Origin: Terriglobales bacterium
GTDB lineage: Bacteria > Acidobacteriota > Terriglobia > Terriglobales > Acidobacteriaceae
Length of the DNA: 64,000 nucleotides
Direction: 5' to 3'
Assembly (NCBI GenBank): GCA_025462725.1
Contig: JAOAPE010000001.1
Location: forward strand, 124,001-188,000
Shown: one piece after another, positions 5,875-46,241 of the stretch
Position numbering within the stretch: position 1 is the first letter of the stretch
Layout: every line of letters begins with the position of its first letter
The notes under the pieces: generated by a model
The model's input: the letters and a program-made list of their open reading frames with translations, nothing else
What the model was told of the DNA's origin: nothing
The model's database searches: none
Program-made: the position numbers and the translations under genes

Positions 5875-7691
5875 AGCTGATATCCGGAATTGGCACGCCT
5901 TTCAAAATGATTGCTCATGAGCGATTCCAGCGCGCTCCAGCGGAAGAGCTTACTGTCTTTTACAGCCTGCTCGGTGAGCGTGTCCAGCAGGAGCGGTTTG
6001 AGCACACCGCGAAACCAGTCATGCACAGGTATATCAAATCCTACTTTTGGGCGATGCAGGATGGAGTGCGGCAACTTGTCTTTCATCAACTCGCGCAAGA
6101 GATACTTGAGCGTGGAACCTTTGATCTTCAGGCTTTCTGGCAATGATGCCGCGAACTCGACTATGCGGTGATCGAGAAACGGCGGCCGCACTTCGAGGGA
6201 GTGCGCCATGCTCATGCGATCGACTTTATAGAGGATGTCGTCAGGCAAATAGTACTGCTGGTCGAAGAACATGTAGCGATTGAGGCCGTCGCTCTTGCCA
6301 TTCCCCATGCTGGCGAGGATCTCGTTCATCGGACGGGGTTCGGCTCCGGCGAGCAGTTCTTCTTTTTCTGATTCGTCGAATGTTCCATTCCAGTAGATGT
6401 GGGCGTCTTCCGGTCGCAACAACGTTCCGCGGAGGAATCGTTTCACTTTGTATTCGAAACTGATCTTCTCGTCCGATACCGGCCAGAGCTGCATTGCAGA
6501 AAGCGCTGCGCTGCGGAGACCTGCGGGAACGCGGCGCGCGGTTGCGGCGTAATCGTCTGCGAGGTAAGTGAGGTATCCGCCGAAGAGTTCGTCTGCGCCT
6601 TCGCCGCTGAGCGCCACGGTAACGTGCTCGCGACTCATCTTCGCGAGAAACCAGACGGGCAGCGCGCCAGCGTCGGCGCTGGGTTCGTCAGAGAAATACG
6701 GAAATTGCTCGATGGCGGTGCGAAGGTCGATGTCTGTGCTGAGGTCGAATTCAGTGTGATCAGTGTTGTAATGATCAGCGGCTTCCTTGATATAGGAACT
6801 CTCGTCAAAGCTGCGTCCGCGGAAGGTGATGGAAAAGGTCTTGAGCTTGTTGCTGGTGGCCTGCGTAGCGTAGTGCAGAATCGTGGATGAATCGATACCG
6901 CCGCTGGCCCAAATGCCGAGTGGCACATCTGACACCATGTGCTCGGCGACAGATTTTTTCAGCAGCGAATCAAGTTCTTCTTTTGCCGATGGCAATGACC
7001 ATGTTGTTGTGGTCGAGGTCGGCGTGTTCTTCCAATATTGCTCGATAGTGCTCTTGCCGTCGCGCCACTCCAGCATGTGTCCGGGAAGAAGTTTGTCGAT
7101 GCCAGCGACGAGCGTGTGCGGCGCGGGAACCCAATTCAAACGCAAGAAACAATTCAGACCGTCGAGATTAATCCTGCGCTCAACTTCCGGATGACACAGG
7201 ATGGATTTCAATTCCGAGCCGAAATAAACATCCTGCCCTGCGTGATGGATGTAGAGCGGCTTAATACCCATGCGGTCGCGGGCGAGGATGAGGCGCTTGT
7301 GGGATTCCGTCCAGATGGCAAGCCCGAACATGCCGCGCAGGCGTTGCAGAAATTGTGTGTCCCACTGGAGGAATGCGCGCAGGACAACTTCTGTGTCGCA
7401 ATGTGATTTGAAGCTGTGTCCGAGCTTCTGTAGTTCGTCCCGGACTTCCTTGTGGTTGTAGATCTCGCCGTTGAAGACGATGGTCGTATCAGCGTCTTCG
7501 CTGTGCATCGGCTGATTGCCGAGAGGCGAGAGATCAATGATCTTCAGGCGGACAGCGCCGAGAGAAACATCAGCGGCTTCGAAGACACCTTGCTGGTCAG
7601 GTCCGCGATGGATCAGACACTGTGTGGCGGCCTCGATGCGGCTTCGCGGGACACTGCGATCCTTATGTGTAAAGCCGGCAATGCCACACAA
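5754..7691 (-). CDS. asnB: Asparagine synthase (glutamine-hydrolysing)
   Basis: This is a two-domain enzyme of 645 residues. Class II glutamine amidotransferases need Cys at position 2, and the TTG codon directly before CGIAGF gives exactly that. A GGAGAG ribosome site stands 7 bases upstream. The longer frame from an upstream ATG would bury the nucleophile and is rejected. RGPDQQG and FNGEIYNHKE belong to the glutaminase half. The synthase half has the PP-loop SGGIDSS, and RPPFLDHR is the typical late motif. It makes asparagine or an amidated product from Asp, ATP and Gln. Acidobacterial AsnB paralogues near glycosyltransferases often belong to envelope polysaccharide clusters; that link is inference here. 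Confidence 0.9.
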   Translation of the reverse strand: MCGIAGFTHKDRSVPRSRIEAATQCLIHRGPDQQGVFEAADVSLGAVRLKIIDLSPLGNQPMHSEDADTTIVFNGEIYNHKEVRDELQKLGHSFKSHCDTEVVLRAFLQWDTQFLQRLRGMFGLAIWTESHKRLILARDRMGIKPLYIHHAGQDVYFGSELKSILCHPEVERRINLDGLNCFLRLNWVPAPHTLVAGIDKLLPGHMLEWRDGKSTIEQYWKNTPTSTTTTWSLPSAKEELDSLLKKSVAEHMVSDVPLGIWASGGIDSSTILHYATQATSNKLKTFSITFRGRSFDESSYIKEAADHYNTDHTEFDLSTDIDLRTAIEQFPYFSDEPSADAGALPVWFLAKMSREHVTVALSGEGADELFGGYLTYLADDYAATARRVPAGLRSAALSAMQLWPVSDEKISFEYKVKRFLRGTLLRPEDAHIYWNGTFDESEKEELLAGAEPRPMNEILASMGNGKSDGLNRYMFFDQQYYLPDDILYKVDRMSMAHSLEVRPPFLDHRIVEFAASLPESLKIKGSTLKYLLRELMKDKLPHSILHRPKVGFDIPVHDWFRGVLKPLLLDTLTEQAVKDSKLFRWSALESLMSNHFERRANSGYQLWGLLTLFLWIKRWNIQTAPAAYPVSSTQDKSSSDVPILI

Positions 7692-7910
7692 TTCGGTTCT
7701 CTCCGAAGGCTCCGCCGCACTCAGAAACGGAGAAAAAGGGATAGCTGCTTCATTGAAGTTTAACAGATGAGCAGAACTGTCCATTTTGACCGCAACCGCG
7801 AGGTGAGCAAAGAATCCGGCAAGCAACTCTCGCCCAGAGAAAATCAGCATCTATCTGACCAGCGGTTACAGCCAGAATCGAAGTTGCTGAAGACCGAGCC
7901 AGGAGGAGCT

Positions 7911-8456
7911 ATGACATCAAGAACGGTTTATTGCCTAGTGGACAGCGGGAGCCAGGCAGAGCAGGTGGTGGAACAGTTAAAAGATGCGGCGTTCACCAGC
8001 CAGGACATTTCAGTGATCATGCCGGACAACAGCGGCACGAAGTTTCTGTCGCCGGAATTCTCGAGCAAGGCACCGGAAGGCGCTGTGGCCGGAGCGGGAA
8101 CCGGAGTGGTGTTGGGGGGCGTGCTGGGTTGGCTTACGGGAATCGGCGCATTGGCGTTGCCGGGATTTGGTCCCTTGCTGGCCGCGGGGCCGCTGATGAC
8201 GGCACTTGCAGGAGCGGCTGCGGGCACAGCCGTGGGCGGACTTGCGGGAGCGCTGATCGGATTGGGAATTCCCGAGAGCGACGTCAACCGCTTCGTTGGC
8301 CGAGTTCAAGAAGGCTGTGCGTTCATCGCTGTGCGCGTGGATGATAGCGAGATGTCTTCGCGAGCGCGACATGTGTTTGAATCTTTCGGCGCATCAGAGA
8401 TTGCGGAAGTGGGAATCGACGATAAAAGTCAGGGCGAAGAACGCAAGATTGCCTAG
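7911..8456 (+). CDS. General stress protein 17M-like (YflT-type) domain protein
   Basis: This encodes 181 residues starting at an ATG with a strong AGGAGG site 5 bases upstream; an ORF opening 144 bases earlier lacks one. The N-terminal half (TVYCLVDSGSQAEQVVEQLK, then DISVIMPD) matches the alpha/beta YflT/GS17M domain. The middle, residues about 60-115, is very rich in Gly and Ala with hydrophobic runs (VVLGGVLGWLTGIGALALPG), as in glycine-zipper membrane segments. The C-terminus (CAFIAVRVDD, then ARHVFESFGASEIAEVG) returns to the N-terminal fold. Homologous proteins are induced by stress, but no molecular role is proven. A hairpin terminator follows closely. Confidence 0.75.
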   Translation: MTSRTVYCLVDSGSQAEQVVEQLKDAAFTSQDISVIMPDNSGTKFLSPEFSSKAPEGAVAGAGTGVVLGGVLGWLTGIGALALPGFGPLLAAGPLMTALAGAAAGTAVGGLAGALIGLGIPESDVNRFVGRVQEGCAFIAVRVDDSEMSSRARHVFESFGASEIAEVGIDDKSQGEERKIA

Positions 8457-8473
8457 ATGGCCCGTGCATGAAA

Positions 8474-8520
8474 AAAACCGCCGGTGCGCTACTTGCAATC
8501 GCGTGCAGGCGGTTTTCGTT
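8474..8520 (+). terminator. Rho-independent-like terminator after the GS17M-like gene
   Basis: A perfect 9-base inverted repeat (AAAACCGCC / GGCGGTTTT) encloses a 25-base loop and starts 17 bases after the stop codon. The descending arm ends in a T run, TTTTCGTTT. Confidence 0.65.
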
Positions 8521-8730
8521 TGCGCGCCAAAGGCTGCTGCTCTCGATTGAGGCCAGCAGGAGATTGTCACACAGCATCATAGGAATCACTGCTCAAGTGC
8601 TTCCCCGCCGCTGTATTCGCGCCTCTCTGACGTGGAGCACGGAAGTAACCGCACTTTAGTTTCCGGGCAGGCATTTACGAATATTGGGGTTTGTGGTCAA
8701 ATCCAGAGTCGCAGAGTTCGAGGAGGCCAG

Positions 8731-9306
8731 TTGCAACTGAACGACAACCTGATGTTTGCACGGACTTTTCTGCGGTCGCCCAAGATGTTAGGCTCCGCGA
8801 TCCCGAGCTCCCGATATCTCATCTCGCACCTGCTGCGCCACTTCGATTGGCAAAAGGCGAAGACCGTGGTGGAATACGGCCCCGGTGTGGGAACGATCAC
8901 TCGGCAGATGCTGCGCAACATGAGTTCCGATGCGAAGCTGCTCGCGATCGAGAGCAATCAGGAACTGGCTGAGCATTTGAAAGAAAATATTGACGACCCC
9001 CGGCTGCACACACGGCTCACGTCAGCGGCGAATGTCCGCAAGGCGCTGAATGGAATGCGCATTGATGCGGCGGATTACGTGATCTCGGGGATACCGTTCA
9101 GCACTATTCCGCGAAAAGAACGGCTGACCATCCTGCGGAATACGTGGAAATCGCTGCGTCCGGGTGGAGTGTTCCTCGTTTATCAGTTCAGCGGAGCGGT
9201 GTTGCCATCATTGGAAGAAGTCTTCGGCCCCGTGCATCAGGAGTTTGAACTGCGAAACGTTCTTCCCGCAAGGATATTCCGGTGCGAGAAGAATGGGGCG
9301 AAGTAG
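8731..9306 (+). CDS. Class I SAM-dependent methyltransferase, phospholipid N-methyltransferase-like
   Basis: The frame opens at a GTG about 100 bases upstream, but the first segment has no family character. A TTG at this position follows an AGGAGG site by 4 bases, and an ATG seven codons later is also possible. The protein begins LMFARTFLRSPKMLGSAIPS, typical of PmtA-like enzymes and KsgA-related N-methyltransferases. Motif I is VVEYGPGVGTITRQML, the acidic motif II is LLAIES, and ISGIPFSTIP sits at motif IV (N/D-x-P-F type). The likely substrate is a phospholipid head group such as phosphatidylethanolamine; an rRNA adenine is less likely. It is convergent with the S41 protease gene, 13 bases away. 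Confidence 0.75.
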   Translation: MQLNDNLMFARTFLRSPKMLGSAIPSSRYLISHLLRHFDWQKAKTVVEYGPGVGTITRQMLRNMSSDAKLLAIESNQELAEHLKENIDDPRLHTRLTSAANVRKALNGMRIDAADYVISGIPFSTIPRKERLTILRNTWKSLRPGGVFLVYQFSGAVLPSLEEVFGPVHQEFELRNVLPARIFRCEKNGAK

Positions 9307-9319
9307 CAGCCCGGCGAAA

Positions 9320-10648
9320 TCAGTTCTTTCCTGCTTCCGTCATTTTCACTGAGACTTTGTCCACAACTGGCAGATCCAAGGCTTTTCGGGCAGCGGCGAC
9401 GGCCACGTGCAAACAGGTGTCCCGTTCCTCGAAGAGGTCTTTGCCAGTAGGTAAGCAAAATTGATCAGGAGCAACGCCCGTTTTTTCGAGCACTTGCCCA
9501 TCTGCCATGACCACCTTGCCCATTGCGATCTCGATGTTGTACGGGACTACCCTGTCAGTCCCGACCTCCTCGGAGAAAATTCGGGCTGAATTCACGCGCC
9601 CCGGAGAGTGGTCGCCGATGATGACAGCCCTCTTGCTCAATTGAAAATGCTTGGCGAACATCTCTGCGGCACTTCCGCTGCGGCTGTCAATCAATATGAA
9701 CATGGGGCCGGTGAAGTTTCCTTTGCGCGCTTTAATGATCAGCGGCTCAGTCTTGTTGCGATACTCGACTTTGCCCATCTCTGATTGTGCTGATTGGAAA
9801 AGACCGCTGAAACTTTTGAGCGTGTCCTGAACACCGCCGGGATTACCGCGCATGTCCACAATAATGGCCTTAGAGCCTTTTACCTTGTCGTACATGCCAT
9901 CCAAGAACTCGCTGTTGTACAGGAATTCCCGGATCTGGATGTAACCGATCCCGCCGTCGTAGTTCGCTGAATGCCAGATCTCTTCCGCGTTTTCGTCCTC
10001 AACAATGAGGTCCCAGATATCGCCCAGACGATTGACCGCATCAAGCACAGTCGGTTTGGCATCTTTGATAGGTTCCAATCGAACATTCCTGGGTTCTTCG
10101 CCATCTGCTTGAACGACCAGATCCATTGCGATCACGGGACGGAGTCTACGCATATCGAGCATCATCAGGTCAAAGCTTCCGCGCTCGGCAGGATGGCCGT
10201 TGATCTTCAGAATGCGGTCACCAATCTTGAGTCCGGCTCTCATTGCTGCGCCATTTTTCTTTAACTCATAAATGCGGGCTTCATTCCCAAAGGCCTTGGC
10301 TTCGAATCCGTATTTGTAGGAAGTAGCACGGGCAGGGGGAATGAAAAAAGTGTGCGAGTCTTTAAGCTTGTCCACCATGATGAAAATGGAAGTGATCATC
10401 TCGCCAACGGATTTGGCCCCTTCGATACGTTCCCTGGTCTGGTTCAACAACGCTGGCCAATCCATGCCATTCATCTTTGGATCGTAGTAGTTTTTCTCGA
10501 GTTCCTTGGCGACCTGCTTCGCGATGTCTTTCATGCGACCGCGTTCACTGCCAAGTTCATCAGCGGCGGCGGGCAAGGACAGCGACATCATTATGGCGAA
10601 GACAACAATGAGCGCTGCAATCCGGCGGCAGACTTGTGTCAATCTCAT
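9320..10648 (-). CDS. Exported S41-family (C-terminal processing type) peptidase
   Basis: The chosen ATG follows AAGGAG by 6 bases and starts a clean signal peptide (IAALIVVFAIMMSLSLPAAA); an ATG 17 codons earlier lacks a site. The product is 442 residues. After the signal comes a helical N-terminal region and a PDZ-like domain (AAMRAGLKIGDRILKINGHP, about residues 130-195). The S41 core follows, with GYIQIREF, VDMRGNPGG and the catalytic-serine segment RSGSAAEMF (Ser about 326). The family cleaves C-terminal tails of envelope proteins, or acts as tricorn-like peptidases. A Lys partner was not firmly placed. It probably acts in the periplasm. Confidence 0.87.
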   Translation of the reverse strand: MRLTQVCRRIAALIVVFAIMMSLSLPAAADELGSERGRMKDIAKQVAKELEKNYYDPKMNGMDWPALLNQTRERIEGAKSVGEMITSIFIMVDKLKDSHTFFIPPARATSYKYGFEAKAFGNEARIYELKKNGAAMRAGLKIGDRILKINGHPAERGSFDLMMLDMRRLRPVIAMDLVVQADGEEPRNVRLEPIKDAKPTVLDAVNRLGDIWDLIVEDENAEEIWHSANYDGGIGYIQIREFLYNSEFLDGMYDKVKGSKAIIVDMRGNPGGVQDTLKSFSGLFQSAQSEMGKVEYRNKTEPLIIKARKGNFTGPMFILIDSRSGSAAEMFAKHFQLSKRAVIIGDHSPGRVNSARIFSEEVGTDRVVPYNIEIAMGKVVMADGQVLEKTGVAPDQFCLPTGKDLFEERDTCLHVAVAAARKALDLPVVDKVSVKMTEAGKN

Positions 10649-10718
10649 CAAGAACTCCTTTTGGTTCGGCCTGTTTTTCAGAGGTGTGGATATTAACAAA
10701 ATGTAGGAACGAGAACAC

Positions 10719-11304
10719 TTACATTCTGCAGTACTGGTTTGCTTTTTCGTGCACGAATTCTGGAAGCCCGTCCTGTGCGCGAAGCAATAACAAACTGTCC
10801 ATGAGAGGCCAGTGCAGGTCAGGATGCTGCTGCAATATTGCTTCGTAGGACCGCAACGCCCCTAGAAGTCCAGCATGATAGACGGCGAGTTGGTCCTTCA
10901 CCTTTTCGGGGTGCTGCACAAGATAAGCCGCGCCGCTGAATGAAATCTGCTGCGACAGCGCTGCCGCATAGCGATAGTTGTCATCCTGGAAACAATTCAT
11001 CTCCACGGCTGTACCAATTGGCGAGCGTGTATTGCGCTTCAGGGCTGCCATGTTCAGCGGCGAGCTTCAGCCAGCTTGCAAACTGCTTCTTGTCTTTTGG
11101 GAGGAGAATGCCCGTGCGATATCCGGCGGCAAGCAGCATTTCAGCATCAACTTCGCCTCGCTCTGCCAACAGGGTTGTAGCTTGGAGTTGTTCGGGCGTG
11201 AGAGCGCGAAGACGGTTCTCATACTGCCACCATCTCGAATAGTTCTGCGCCAGTGATGTGCAGGACAGCAGAACCGCAATCAGAATTCCGACAATGAATC
11301 TAAT
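10719..11304 (-). pseudogene. Broken Sel1-repeat exported protein (lost start codon plus frameshift)
   Basis: Two overlapping frames together give one exported Sel1-type protein. The 5' frame starts at ATT and reads RFIVGILIAVLLSCTSLAQ, an ideal signal peptide, with a GAGG site 9 bases before the ATT; there is no ATG, GTG or TTG at that place. It continues WLKLAAEHGSPEAQYTLANW, a canonical Sel1 repeat, and hits TGA soon after YSRGDELFPG. The second frame resumes with DDNYRYAAALSQQ and runs to a normal stop. Dropping one G from CCAGG near 10984 joins them as DELFP-DDNYRY. Either the gene is decaying, or the sequence has an error plus a rare ATT start. Confidence 0.6.
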
Positions 11305-41626: not shown

Positions 41627-41722
41627 GCCAAACAGGCTGTCTGCTGCCGAATGCCGCATTATTTTGTAGAATACTTGCACCCAATCCCAAGGTTATTGCA
41701 GCCTCAGCTTGGCTGGCGTCTC

Positions 41723-42823
41723 ATGTCCCAATTTTCTGGAGGTAACTTGCAGAACATTCGTTCTTACACTCGACGGTCCATTGCTGGACTGCTCTTCCCT
41801 TCCTTGCTGGTGCTCACTGCGTTTTCCGGGTGCAACCGCAATGAAAGCAGTGGCGATGCGCTTGCCCGTGTGAACGGGGAGAAGATTCTTCGCGCGGATG
41901 TGGACAAGTACTACGCCAATCAGACAGCTGGCTCTCCGCAGCAACCTGTTGGCGAACAGGCGGACAGCCTGCGTTTGAATATTCTCAAGCAACTGATTGA
42001 CGACGAGATCATGATGCAGCGGGCGCGCAAACTCGGCCTGCTTGCCACTGACGAAGAAGTGGATGCGAAGTTCACCGAATTCAAGTCGCCATACACCCAA
42101 GAGGAATTCGACAAGCGCTTGAAGGAAAAGAATGTCACGCTGGACGACTTCAAGCGCGACCTCCGCCGTGGCCTTACGGTCGAAAAGGTCTTCAACAAGG
42201 AAGTCACTTCTAAGATCAACATCACTGATGGCGATATCACGAAGTACTACAACGAACATAAAGCAGAATTCAATCTGATTGAGCCGCAGTTTCATCTGGC
42301 GCAGATCGTCGTCACTACCTCGCCTGCTCCCGTAAACAACGGCAAGAACGATAAGGCGCAGAACGAACCAGAAGCCAAGAAGAAGATTCAGATGCTCATG
42401 AACCGCATCGAGAGTGGAGAAGACTTCTCCACCGTCGCGATGAATTATTCAGAACAGACCAACACCTCCACGAACGGAGGTGATATGGGCTTTATCCCGG
42501 AATCGTCGTTGAAAGCCGACCTGCAAGCAATGCAGGCCATTTCCAAACTAAAAATTGGCCAGAACACAGAACCTATTCCCGCGTACGGAGAGGGCCACAA
42601 GCTTGTTGGGTACCGCATAGTGAAGCTGATCGCCCGCGAACCCGCCGGACAGCGCGAGCTTGCCGATCCCCGCGTGCAAGGGAACATCCGGCAGCAACTA
42701 CGCGACCGTCGCGAACAGCTGTTACGCGCAGCGTATTACGAGGTCGTCCGCAACGAAGCAAAAGTTGAAAACTATCTTGCCGACGAGTTACTGAAGAACA
42801 CGGGCGCAGCGACAAAGAAATAG
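41723..42823 (+). CDS. Peptidyl-prolyl isomerase/foldase (SurA/PpiC-type lipoprotein)
   Basis: The ATG chosen gives 366 residues; a TTG eight codons later follows a GGAGG site and is also possible. A signal peptide ends near a lipobox-like FSGC. The SurA N-terminal chaperone part starts ARVNGEKILRADVDKYYANQ, includes LKQLIDDEIMMQRARKLGLL and DEEVDAKFTEFKSPYTQEEF, and the PPIC parvulin domain follows with FHLAQIVVTTS, GEDFSTVAMNYSEQ and GGDMGFIPESSL. It assists folding of outer membrane proteins. Coexistence with lptD and a DsbA-like protein suggests an envelope-biogenesis grouping. A strong hairpin follows. Confidence 0.9.
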   Translation: MSQFSGGNLQNIRSYTRRSIAGLLFPSLLVLTAFSGCNRNESSGDALARVNGEKILRADVDKYYANQTAGSPQQPVGEQADSLRLNILKQLIDDEIMMQRARKLGLLATDEEVDAKFTEFKSPYTQEEFDKRLKEKNVTLDDFKRDLRRGLTVEKVFNKEVTSKINITDGDITKYYNEHKAEFNLIEPQFHLAQIVVTTSPAPVNNGKNDKAQNEPEAKKKIQMLMNRIESGEDFSTVAMNYSEQTNTSTNGGDMGFIPESSLKADLQAMQAISKLKIGQNTEPIPAYGEGHKLVGYRIVKLIAREPAGQRELADPRVQGNIRQQLRDRREQLLRAAYYEVVRNEAKVENYLADELLKNTGAATKK

Positions 42824-42889: not shown

Positions 42890-45781
42890 TTAGAGCGAAG
42901 CTTGCTTGTACCCTACCGCTGCGAGTGCCTGATTGCGGTCGTACTCAGAACGGATGCCCCGCGCTGCACGAATGTACTCTTCCCGGAGGTTCCCTTCCAA
43001 GTGCTTGCTGGCCGCAGCAACGCCCAACACCCGCGCCGCCTCGTAATCAGACTTGATGCTTGGAACAGATTGGATGACTCCCAGTAGCGCCGAGTCGTCG
43101 GACTTCCGCGCACCCAGGAATGACACCAAAGTGCGCGCGTGTTCGTAGTCCGACTTGATAGCGTTCACGCTGGCGAGGAAATCGGCTTGCGTGCTGGCGT
43201 CCACCAGGTTGCGGCCGGCCATCTGCACCAGCACTCGGGCGTGTTCGTAATCGGACTTAAGTTGCGAAGCCGATTGCAGCAACCCCCGCATCATGTCCTT
43301 GGGAATTGTGCCGTACTCGAAGAAAGCCATCAGCACCCGCGCATGCTCATAATCAGACTTAATGCGCGAGACTGAATCAAGGATGGTCTTGCTGAGATCC
43401 GCAGAGACCTGCCCCTTTTGGAAGAACGCCATCAGCACGCGGGCGTGTTCGTAGTCCGATTGCAGCGTGTCAATCGCTGCCACGAATGCCGCGCGTTGTG
43501 ACGCATCTTGCAGCGGATACTTGCCTGCGATTCCCATCAGCACCCGGGCACACTCGTAATCAGAACCCATCTCCCCGGCCCGTGCCATTGTCAATGACAA
43601 CTCGTCGGACTTTAGATCGACATCTTGAATCAGCTTCAGCAGGTATGTGGATCGTGCATAGTCGGTCTCCATGTAGGAGACCTCTTCCAGCACGCGCTTT
43701 GCGCCGCCTTCCTGCATCAACTTAGGAAATCTTTTCTTGATGCCCGTCGCGCTGTGCCGGTCCATGGCAACCAAGAAATTCGCCAGCCACTTCCGCCCCG
43801 TTGCATCAAACTCCCGGTTAGTGTTGTTGACTGACCACAAGTATTCCAGCCGGCCGCTCGCCGTTGGTCGAACGACGAGCCGGTAAATCTCGCATTCCGA
43901 TCCTGAGCCTGTTACTTTCGTCGCCCAACCTGCGACGGTGCAATACGCAGCACTGCCGTGCATTCGAGCCGTGATGTCGACGTAGCCGCCAGACGAGATA
44001 CTCTGGAAGTCTGTGAAGTCGCTGTTGAAGCTAATTTCGCCTTCTGACTCGAGAGATAATCCGCAACCATCGCCCGACCATTTGATCTGCCATGACTGCA
44101 CCTTTCCGTTGTTGTTCTGCAGGCTTTCCTTTGACGAGCCCGCTACGCATTCGAACCCTGTCTTTTTATTTGCAGGCGGCGTAGCTGCTGCAGTTTGCTG
44201 TCTTGACCCTTCCCGAGTTGCTGCCAGTGGCGCACGCAAATACGAGCCTTCTACTCCGCCGCCGACTCCTGGCACCACTCCGGCGACTATGCCACCATGG
44301 GCACCCGCAGCAACTCCACCTCGAACTCCACCAGAAACGCCTCCGGCAATGCCTGGATTCGGACCGCCGGGAAGGTAAGTCGTACCAGCATCTGGAGCCG
44401 GTGTGGGCCGCGCTTCGCTAGCCTTTCCGGCTGCTGCCGCTACGGGAGCAGGTCCCACTCCGCTTGACTGTGCTGCAGCGGCGGAGACTGGCGCAAGCGT
44501 AGGTTCCGCAGCATCAGAGGCGTCGCCAACTTGCGCGGGCGCTGCGGCGGGTGATGAGGTGGTCGCTTTCGGCTGCTTCTTCTGAGTGTCGGATTGAGTT
44601 ACGGAGCCCGCAGGGCTCAACGCCGCTAATGGCAGCACCAGTGCTACCGCGACTACCGCGACGGACAACGCGGTTGCGCGAGAGATTCTCTGTCTGCTCA
44701 ACTTCGGATTTAGGAGTGCCACTAGTCTTCCTTCCAATTGCGATTTGCGAGCCATTGCCAACGCAACAGCGTAGTGCTCTGATTTCCGGAAACTGCTGAC
44801 CATGGTCAGTAGATCGTTCGCGTACTCCGATGGCGCTGACCCCGAGGCCAGCACGTAATCGTCACAGGCGCGCTCGCGCTCGAATCTCACGCGCTGGGAG
44901 GCCATCCACGCCAGAGGATTAAACCAATAGACAGCGCAGGCCAGGTGCGAGATCGATTGCGTAAGTGCATCGAGCCGAGCGATGTGCGCCATCTCGTGGC
45001 GGATCACCGCGTTTTTGCGCATCGTGCTCCACTCGTTGGAGTCGCCGGGCAGCACGATCTTGGGGTAGATCACGCCGAAGGTCAGCGGCACTTCCGTCTC
45101 GGAACTGCATAGCAGGGTGACTGGTCTGCGGATCTGCAACTGTTCGCGCGCAGATTCTGCCAGCCTGATCCAGTCGCTTTCGATAACTGGTGTGGCGTCT
45201 TTCATCAGGCGTCGCACTTTGAGAGTGCCCAGGAAGTAGTAGCCGAGCCAGAAGGCAATTCCGGAAATCCATCCCGCCAGTGCGATTGCCGACCAGGAAA
45301 TGGAAGGGCTTGTGGCGGACTGGAGTGGGACTGTGCTCTGCGAAGAATGTTTAGACTCGACGTTTGTATTTGGCTTTGCGTTCGAGGCAATTTCAGCCGA
45401 TGAACTCGCTTGGGCTGTATTCGGCCGCGGACTGCGCGTGGACTTTCGATCGATCACTCTCTCGCTATCATTATTTTGAGATTCGATCACAGTTGAAGCG
45501 GCAGGCGGAGTAACAATGGTTGTAGTCTCGCTGGGTCTTGATACGGTAGGCAGCACGCGCCATGCGGGAACCACCGCGGGAAGAAATAGGACTGCAACCG
45601 CTGCGACGCTGGCTACTACCCAGATCATGTGCCGCAGTGCGGCTGAGCGGTTGCGGAGCAAGCTTGCCCCCGATGTGGCGATCACGAGAATGATGCTGCC
45701 CTTGATCGTCGCTTCCAATAAACGCGCCAGCACCGTGCTCGATTGCAAATCTGAAATGAAGTTGCCGGACGATATCATCAT
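42890..45781 (-). CDS. BlaR1-type M56 metallopeptidase sensor with eight C-terminal SDYE repeats
   Basis: This 963-residue protein has four membrane helices in the M56 part (e.g. HMIWVVASVAAVAVLFLPAV at 51-70). The zinc site HEMAH is at 262-266, and the third ligand is in RERACDDY. A last helix at 371-390 precedes the outside part. That begins with an Ala/Pro linker and a Gly-Gly-Val-rich section (472-512), then a beta domain, then eight degenerate copies of about 35 residues with the core KSDYEHARVL. BlaR1 proteins sense a signal outside and cut BlaI-type repressors inside. No beta-lactam-binding PBP domain is seen, so the signal differs. It starts 2 bases after blaI. Confidence 0.88.
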   Translation of the reverse strand: MMISSGNFISDLQSSTVLARLLEATIKGSIILVIATSGASLLRNRSAALRHMIWVVASVAAVAVLFLPAVVPAWRVLPTVSRPSETTTIVTPPAASTVIESQNNDSERVIDRKSTRSPRPNTAQASSSAEIASNAKPNTNVESKHSSQSTVPLQSATSPSISWSAIALAGWISGIAFWLGYYFLGTLKVRRLMKDATPVIESDWIRLAESAREQLQIRRPVTLLCSSETEVPLTFGVIYPKIVLPGDSNEWSTMRKNAVIRHEMAHIARLDALTQSISHLACAVYWFNPLAWMASQRVRFERERACDDYVLASGSAPSEYANDLLTMVSSFRKSEHYAVALAMARKSQLEGRLVALLNPKLSRQRISRATALSVAVVAVALVLPLAALSPAGSVTQSDTQKKQPKATTSSPAAAPAQVGDASDAAEPTLAPVSAAAAQSSGVGPAPVAAAAGKASEARPTPAPDAGTTYLPGGPNPGIAGGVSGGVRGGVAAGAHGGIVAGVVPGVGGGVEGSYLRAPLAATREGSRQQTAAATPPANKKTGFECVAGSSKESLQNNNGKVQSWQIKWSGDGCGLSLESEGEISFNSDFTDFQSISSGGYVDITARMHGSAAYCTVAGWATKVTGSGSECEIYRLVVRPTASGRLEYLWSVNNTNREFDATGRKWLANFLVAMDRHSATGIKKRFPKLMQEGGAKRVLEEVSYMETDYARSTYLLKLIQDVDLKSDELSLTMARAGEMGSDYECARVLMGIAGKYPLQDASQRAAFVAAIDTLQSDYEHARVLMAFFQKGQVSADLSKTILDSVSRIKSDYEHARVLMAFFEYGTIPKDMMRGLLQSASQLKSDYEHARVLVQMAGRNLVDASTQADFLASVNAIKSDYEHARTLVSFLGARKSDDSALLGVIQSVPSIKSDYEAARVLGVAAASKHLEGNLREEYIRAARGIRSEYDRNQALAAVGYKQASL

Positions 45782-45783
45782 GG

Positions 45784-46179
45784 CTATCTGCCCTCCGACT
45801 TTGCTTGTTTGATCAACTTTTTCAGGCGCGCCACATCACTGGCGGACAATTTCGAATCCGGCAATTCCAACAGCGATGCCGCTGCTTCAGACGCCGACCC
45901 TCCGAAGAATGTATGCACCATGTGCCGTAGCGCGGAGTGTTGTGCCTGCTGTTGGCCTGCGGTCGGCAGATACACGTAGCGAAGCCCGTCCTGCTGATGA
46001 TGTACGTAGCCTTTGTCTTCCAACAGCCCGAGCATGCCGCGAACCGAAGAATACGAAGGTGGATCCGGCAATTCCTTCAGCACCTCAGCTACTGACGCCT
46101 TCCCTAAACGAAAGACGATATCCATGATCTGCCGCTCGCGGCGTCCTAATTCAAGATGTGGCTGACCCTTCACCATTGC
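45784..46179 (-). CDS. blaI: BlaI/MecI/CopY-family transcriptional repressor
   Basis: This encodes 131 residues from the ATG with AAGGAG 6 bases upstream; a frame opening 18 codons earlier would run through the operators. The winged-helix part is LGRRERQIMDIVFRLGKASV, then VLKELPDPPSYSSVRGMLGL, then KGYVHHQQDGLRYVYLP, as in BlaI. The C-terminal dimer helices are SALRHMVHTFFGGSASEAAA, then LSASDVARLKKLIKQAKSEG. The repressor is expected to bind the two palindromes upstream and be cleaved by the M56 sensor encoded by the next gene. It is the first gene of this two-gene operon. Confidence 0.93.
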   Translation of the reverse strand, partial: AMVKGQPHLELGRRERQIMDIVFRLGKASVAEVLKELPDPPSYSSVRGMLGLLEDKGYVHHQQDGLRYVYLPTAGQQQAQHSALRHMVHTFFGGSASEAAASLLELPDSKLSASDVARLKKLIKQAKSEGR

Positions 46180-46189
46180 TGCTCCTTCT

Positions 46190-46203
46190 GCTAACTGATT
46201 AGC
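46190..46203. promoter_or_regulatory. Operator palindrome 1 upstream of blaI
   Basis: GCTAA-CTGA-TTAGC is a perfect palindrome (extendable to TGCTAA / TTAGCA) lying just downstream of the predicted transcription start and about 10 bases before the blaI start codon. BlaI-type repressors bind such dyads. Confidence 0.7.
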
Positions 46204-46205
46204 AG

Positions 46206-46223
46206 GTGCTAGTACATTAGCAC
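46206..46223. promoter_or_regulatory. Operator palindrome 2 over the blaI -10 region
   Basis: GTGCTA-GTACAT-TAGCAC has perfect 6-base arms and overlaps the -10 hexamer. Its centre is 18 bases from that of the other dyad, which has the same TGCTA half-site. Together they suggest autorepression by BlaI. Confidence 0.7.
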
Positions 46224-46241
46224 ATGCAAGCAACGTGTCAA
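46214..46241 (-). promoter_or_regulatory. Promoter of blaI-blaR1
   Basis: A perfect TTGACA (complement of 46236-46241) is followed after 16 bases by TAATGT, with TGC directly before it as an extended -10. It lies 35-60 bases upstream of the start codon and is overlaid by the operator palindromes. Confidence 0.65.

Follow-up and report, generated by a model that had tools for sequence, protein, structure and literature searches.

A BlaR1-type membrane protease whose outside part bears no penicillin sensor raises the question of what such a receptor senses and which genes it controls, since BlaR1 itself has, to our knowledge, been investigated almost wholly as a sensor of penicillin. The locus that raises it lies in a 64,000-nucleotide stretch of DNA from a Terriglobales soil bacterium (contig JAOAPE010000001.1; hereafter the window), where a 963-amino-acid open reading frame at positions 42890-45781 on the minus strand constitutes an M56 protease gene. 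All features of this gene and of its operon given below are on the minus strand and are numbered by the window.

The protease half retains the BlaR1 catalytic residues and membrane pattern

In a Pfam search of the window protein, Peptidase_M56 (PF05569) was matched over residues 22-356 with an E value of 1.5e-32, and this match, taken with the transmembrane and charge pattern, places the M56 (BlaR1-type) membrane metalloprotease region at residues 1-392 (44606..45781). When the region was aligned by phmmer with Staphylococcus aureus BlaR1 (8exs), residues H201, E202, H205, E242, D246, and R294 of BlaR1 were found to correspond to H262, E263, H266, E303, D307, and R352, all of which are invariant across the 9 close relatives compared. 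The intact M56 zinc site claimed by an earlier, sequence-only reading of this DNA is thus present, as the HEMAH motif at residues 262-266 (44984..44998), together with the full BlaR1 catalytic set. We take E242 of BlaR1 to be the third zinc ligand, with E303 as its counterpart in the window protein. Roles for most of the listed BlaR1 residues have been described (PMC9834060).

Hydropathy and flanking charges predicted four transmembrane helices, near residues 15-42, 46-81, 160-184, and 364-397, whose cytoplasmic ends are flanked by positive charges, and an outside loop at residues 81-160. From these positions and charges, the zinc site is predicted to lie in the cytoplasm and the C-terminal tail outside, as in BlaR1, and the pattern agrees with the N-out, C-out arrangement of that protein (PMC9834060). 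Catalytic site, membrane topology, and the blaI partner described below all fit the earlier assignment to the BlaR1-type proteases. As that assignment also held, a PBP-like domain is absent: no PBP, transpeptidase, or beta-lactamase family of Pfam or NCBIfam matched the window M56 protein, by which a penicillin sensor concealed in the tail was ruled out, and the NCBIfam BlaR1 model, which has a cut-off of 400 bits, scored only 113.

The outside part consists of a linker, a beta domain, and a predicted repeat solenoid

The protease region is followed by an Ala/Pro-rich extracytoplasmic linker (residues 393-542; 44156..44605) that is poorly conserved between relatives. The Gly-Gly-Val stretch noticed earlier is a section of this longer linker, at about residues 472-515 (44237..44368), and it is restricted to three same-genus genomes (those of the window, L032, and L033), the linkers of other relatives being Pro/Ala-rich.

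Alignments and models delimit a beta domain, or stalk, at residues 543-660 (43802..44155); the sequence-only reading was silent on this separate domain, as it was on the adjoining blaI gene and the operator. Cys 545 and Cys 573 of the domain are conserved among close relatives. An extra Cys pair, 614 and 630 (about 43892-43942), lies in an insertion of about 21 amino acids that is specific to the window protein. Modelled alone, the domain reached a pLDDT of 90.5, and because this model found no strong structural match (best E of 0.027 in Foldseek, best Z of 5.2 in VIA), we label the modelled domain undescribed and do not claim it as a new fold. A conserved connector (RFPKLMQEGGAKRVLEEV, residues 661-702; 43676..43801), helical in the model and with invariant R/GG/VL/E columns in the alignment of relatives, leads from the beta domain to the repeats.

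Both lag-34 periodicity and modelling define eight 34-amino-acid SDYE repeats, predicted to be alpha hairpins, over residues 703-963 (42893..43675). The lag-34 autocorrelation, expressed as a mean BLOSUM score, was +0.80 compared to a best value of -0.25 among 300 shuffles, and the repeat anchors fall at residues 706, 740, 775, 809, 843, 877, 911, and 945. The eight units that had been proposed were all recovered, but the core KSDYEHARVL ascribed to them is exact in two only; SDYEHARVL is found in three units, the first unit has a degenerate TDYA, and the last has SEYD. Across 57 close-family units the D never varies and the Y, E, R, and L hardly do; the 34-residue repeat signature is I-x-S/T-D-Y-E-x-A/S-R-x-L. 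Tandem DNA repeats that would account for the array were not found by TRF, which argues that the repeat copies are old.

Structure prediction of the outside part had been set beforehand as a test, and the AlphaFold2 model of residues 543-963, computed with an alignment of 14 relatives as input (pLDDT 88, pTM 0.82), presents the beta domain and then regular alpha hairpins, with no known ligand domain. The superhelix suggested earlier for the repeat array accordingly takes the form, in the model, of a regular alpha-hairpin solenoid. Helix A of the model starts one residue past the S/T of the SDYE-type motif in 8 of 8 units, so each SDYE motif is, as modelled, a helix N-cap; its S-x-x-E is a pattern known as a capping box.

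No PDB entry matched the tail model in Foldseek at an E value of 0.001 or below, and a PDB sequence search returned no solved structure related to the tail (best E of 0.15). VIA-align matched the model to HEAT/ARM-type solenoids with Z scores up to 15.7 (VPS35, rmsd 6.2 over 313 residues), a likeness that we ascribe to a common helical-repeat arrangement and not to kinship. In Pfam, the window protein had no HEAT, ARM, or TPR profile match, nor did the family listings of the A2 members show one; in the distant relative L093, HEAT_2 was seen at an E value of 0.059 only. DUF4476 (PF14771) matched 3 of 14 members, always below cut-off (best E of 0.011); this match and those to HEPN_LA2681 and BT_3657-like, which likewise fell below cut-off, were local. 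For neither the beta domain nor the SDYE repeats was a Pfam or NCBIfam family found. The likeness to HEAT/ARM/TPR alpha solenoids is that of a predicted superhelix of two-helix units, and the fold match is generic; the window repeats gave no match to these families in Pfam and bear their own 34-residue signature.

A tandem operator is confined to the blaI-M56 promoter

The blaI repressor gene (45784..46176; Penicillinase_R, PF03965, E value of 3e-26) precedes the M56 gene on the same strand, with 2 bp between them; its mechanical open reading frame begins at TTG 46233, and its start was assigned to ATG 46176. The promoter of the pair has a -35 hexamer, TTGACA (46236..46241), 3' of which TGCTAN6TAGCA occurs twice, 18 bp apart. 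Motif conservation identifies these two sites as predicted BlaI operators, operator 1 (TGCTAATGTACTAGCA, 46207..46222) over the expected -10 region and operator 2 (TGCTAATCAGTTAGCA, 46189..46204) immediately before the blaI start. Of the SDYE-class relatives that were compared, nearly all have TTGAC(A) directly upstream of the tandem operator, and relatives with an intact promoter share the tandem site. The canonical BlaI box, TACA-TGTA, was looked for upstream of blaI and is absent there.

In the whole 4.33-Mb genome of the window, TGCTARNNNNYTAGCA has two occurrences, both at the blaI-M56 promoter, and this promoter was also the only place where a tandem pair was found when up to 3 mismatches were allowed. 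Thirteen of 200 same-family genomes carry the tandem site, one per genome, 12 of them upstream of blaI-M56-SDYE and 1 upstream of blaI-M56-ankyrin. Across the whole genome no exact operator was found at a beta-lactamase or PBP2a gene. Because the exact motif is confined to the blaI-M56 promoter, BlaI appears, as judged from these sites, to regulate chiefly its own operon, which would then be the strict regulon; if so, the circuit may have the receptor as its output.

BlaI controls several genes elsewhere, mycobacterial BlaI being an example, and a wider regulon, using operators of divergent, single, or half form that escape the strict motif, might be suspected from three one-mismatch sites in the window genome. 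None of the three is at a clear promoter, however, and relaxing the operator to 2 mismatches or fewer gave 67 sites in this genome, fewer than the 177 of the reversed control, so a wider regulon via the relaxed operator was rejected; in relatives, the additional exact single sites numbered 0-2, which is inside the range of the reversed-pattern control. We regard such a regulon as unlikely.

No conserved operon partner was found among the relatives compared, and in most main-clade relatives the next downstream gene is on the opposite strand. In the window, a SurA-like PPIase gene (41651-42823) is convergent with the M56 gene, and past it lie a DsbA-like gene and LptD; the SurA-like neighbor is present in 3 of 3 same-genus genomes with the receptor and is not retained beyond the genus.

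An alignment of BlaI shows Ser-Leu at the cleavage site where known BlaI proteins have Phe at P1'; as Phe is not evident there, cleavage at this position is not assured. In L042 (genome G082), an M56 protein bears an SDGD variant of the repeats, and the region upstream of its blaI (10437-10829) holds a different paired palindrome, AACTATTAATTTAATAGTT, which, as a sequence pattern, suggests co-evolution of BlaI and operator.

Different modules occupy the proposed sensor position

At L103 (5769-8189), the M56 protease and the beta domain are joined to a transpeptidase domain (PF00905, E value of 1.4e-46). Since this transpeptidase follows the same beta domain, the SDYE array would occupy the sensor position, and the earlier description of the repeats as standing instead of a penicillin sensor was apt. 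Together with the lack of a penicillin domain, the predicted solenoid at this place supports the interpretation of the tail as a non-penicillin sensor. L103, which is from another Acidobacteriota family, is possibly a true beta-lactam receptor.

It may be asked whether the window receptor nevertheless reports beta-lactams or cell-wall damage indirectly, with a PBP or wall enzyme as the partner that its solenoid binds. Its BlaI/M56 ancestry and the transpeptidase version at L103 would agree with this, as would the SurA-like gene in the genus, an envelope-folding gene; but the window protein has no beta-lactam-binding domain, no second operator serves a beta-lactamase or PBP gene, and the SurA neighbor is not retained outside the genus. 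We consider indirect sensing of this kind improbable.

Ankyrin repeats are a known protein-binding solenoid. At L170 (2920-4959), a BlaI-paired M56 protein carries them outside (PF12796, E value of 4.6e-22) under the same tandem operator; it is unusual for a BlaR1-type protein to have ankyrin repeats at its periplasmic position. A census of 60 genomes supplied sixteen further same-family M56 loci, chosen chiefly because their frames are long, and every one of the 16 adjoins BlaI, with outside modules that comprise DUF4097, TonB_C, DUF3738/TIGR03435, coiled coils, and GVTPEY repeats. The last form a second tandem-repeat class on BlaI-paired M56 proteins (L203, L205, L208, and L213), with units of 28-29 residues, a core of GVTPEYV, and no Pfam family.

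The module is found on several M56 lineages and in exported proteins

The tail is present in 12 of 150 same-family genomes (7 of 79 genera), and a phylum-wide alignment search hit 46 of 396 genomes, in many of which only the beta domain matched. Genomes in which the tail was located include Acidobacteriota, a Myxococcota-type MAG, Rudaea cellulosilytica, and a Chitinophagales MAG. Sorted by local HMMs, the loci fall into proteins with M56, beta domain, and SDYE repeats, adjoined by BlaI; proteins with M56, beta domain, and a coiled coil or other tail, also with BlaI; and exported proteins of beta domain and repeats, with signal peptides or a lipobox and neither M56 nor BlaI. The BlaI-M56 pairing is retained in nearly all loci that combine M56 with the beta domain. 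The signal peptides or lipobox of the stand-alone copies argue that the module is located outside the cytoplasm, and the lack of M56 and BlaI in the exported copies argues that it also has a role beyond the BlaI-M56 pair. Three stand-alone exported proteins of beta domain and SDYE repeats (L090:6214-10065, L091:2286-7151, and L056:1960-6275) are beside MacB/FtsX-type permeases, one of them also beside an ECF sigma gene.

In a tree of 43 M56 domains, that of the window groups with 11 other SDYE receptors (95/90); SDYE-type tails occur on other M56 branches too, and the starred branches force at least 3 changes, so module and protease were joined or parted more than once. The undescribed module of beta domain and SDYE repeats is thus spread over several distinct lineages of M56 (Acidobacteriota, Myxococcota, and Rudaea). 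Nothing on the SDYE module or on diverse M56 sensors was found in the openly searchable literature.

A proposed receptor for a non-penicillin envelope signal

The computed domains, catalytic residues, topology pattern, predicted solenoid, operon, and conservation and restriction of the operator are best explained, with a probability of roughly 60%, by a self-regulated two-gene signalling unit of the BlaI/BlaR1 type with a helical solenoid, not a penicillin-binding domain, as its sensor. The receptor probably senses an envelope signal other than penicillin. The M56 protease would be an inner-membrane protein whose zinc site faces the cytoplasm, and the flexible linker after the last transmembrane helix would reach into the periplasm, bearing the beta domain and then the SDYE solenoid; there the solenoid may be bound by a protein, a peptide, or another envelope ligand. 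By analogy, we infer ligand-driven activation and BlaI cleavage: the change in the ligand-bound solenoid would be passed to M56, BlaI would be cleaved and leave the two tandem operators, and expression of the blaI-M56 operon would rise.

The restriction of the strict operators to blaI-M56, which makes the receptor the sole known product of the switch, also fits the main rival idea, in which the solenoid is itself the working part, a periplasmic scaffold or chaperone anchored in the inner membrane and dosed by BlaI feedback, and the protease mainly removes BlaI or other proteins. That no other gene is regularly co-transcribed and that the module is also exported alone, in three cases beside the permeases, are consistent with it. 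The M56 catalytic residues and the BlaI pairing are strictly kept, however, and unrelated modules, one of them penicillin-binding, are at the same place in other M56 proteins, which favors a sensor slot; we find the scaffold idea doubtful, if a little less so than the wider regulon. Returning to a signalling unit with a solenoid sensor, we put forward more tentatively that in Acidobacteriota and some others BlaI/M56 may serve as a general receptor chassis for periplasmic protein or peptide signals, with swappable solenoid arms (SDYE, ankyrin, and GVTPEY), and that the SDYE version may be a closed circuit, acting directly on its own operon and on no other target, with the receptor as its output.

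With BlaR1/MecR1 of staphylococci and bacilli (MEROPS Peptidase M56), the window protein shares the equivalents of the M56 catalytic residues, the transmembrane pattern, an outside C-terminal module, and a BlaI gene, but it has the beta domain and the 34-residue repeat solenoid and no transpeptidase-like sensor, and its system belongs to a Gram-negative periplasm, with no beta-lactamase or PBP2a target found. For lack of the penicillin-binding sensor domain and of an operator at a resistance gene, we do not file it as BlaR1. Mycobacterium tuberculosis BlaR is a BlaR1 homologue without a penicillin sensor or an equivalent sensor domain (PMC9834060); the window protein likewise has no penicillin sensor, whereas it bears an elaborate outside module. 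The Acidobacteriota M56 proteins with DUF3738/TIGR03435, TonB_C, DUF4097, or ankyrin are alike in being BlaI-paired with an exchanged outside module, from which the SDYE module differs and is absent from family libraries. The locus is thus a BlaI/M56 receptor variant with an undescribed sensor module.

Altogether, the results suggest that the BlaI/M56 protease-repressor pair reads outside signals other than penicillin, its sensor slot being filled by repeat solenoids. The family offers a defined, undescribed module of beta domain and SDYE repeats together with a predicted operator, which would be a direct reporter in a search for the ligand, and the natural series of exchanged sensors is useful for the study of M56 activation across the membrane. 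As a further observation, the genome of L044 has a second M56/BlaI pair (7588-9135), whose 327-amino-acid M56 protein is without an outside module and whose genes are beside a TonB-dependent-receptor-like gene.
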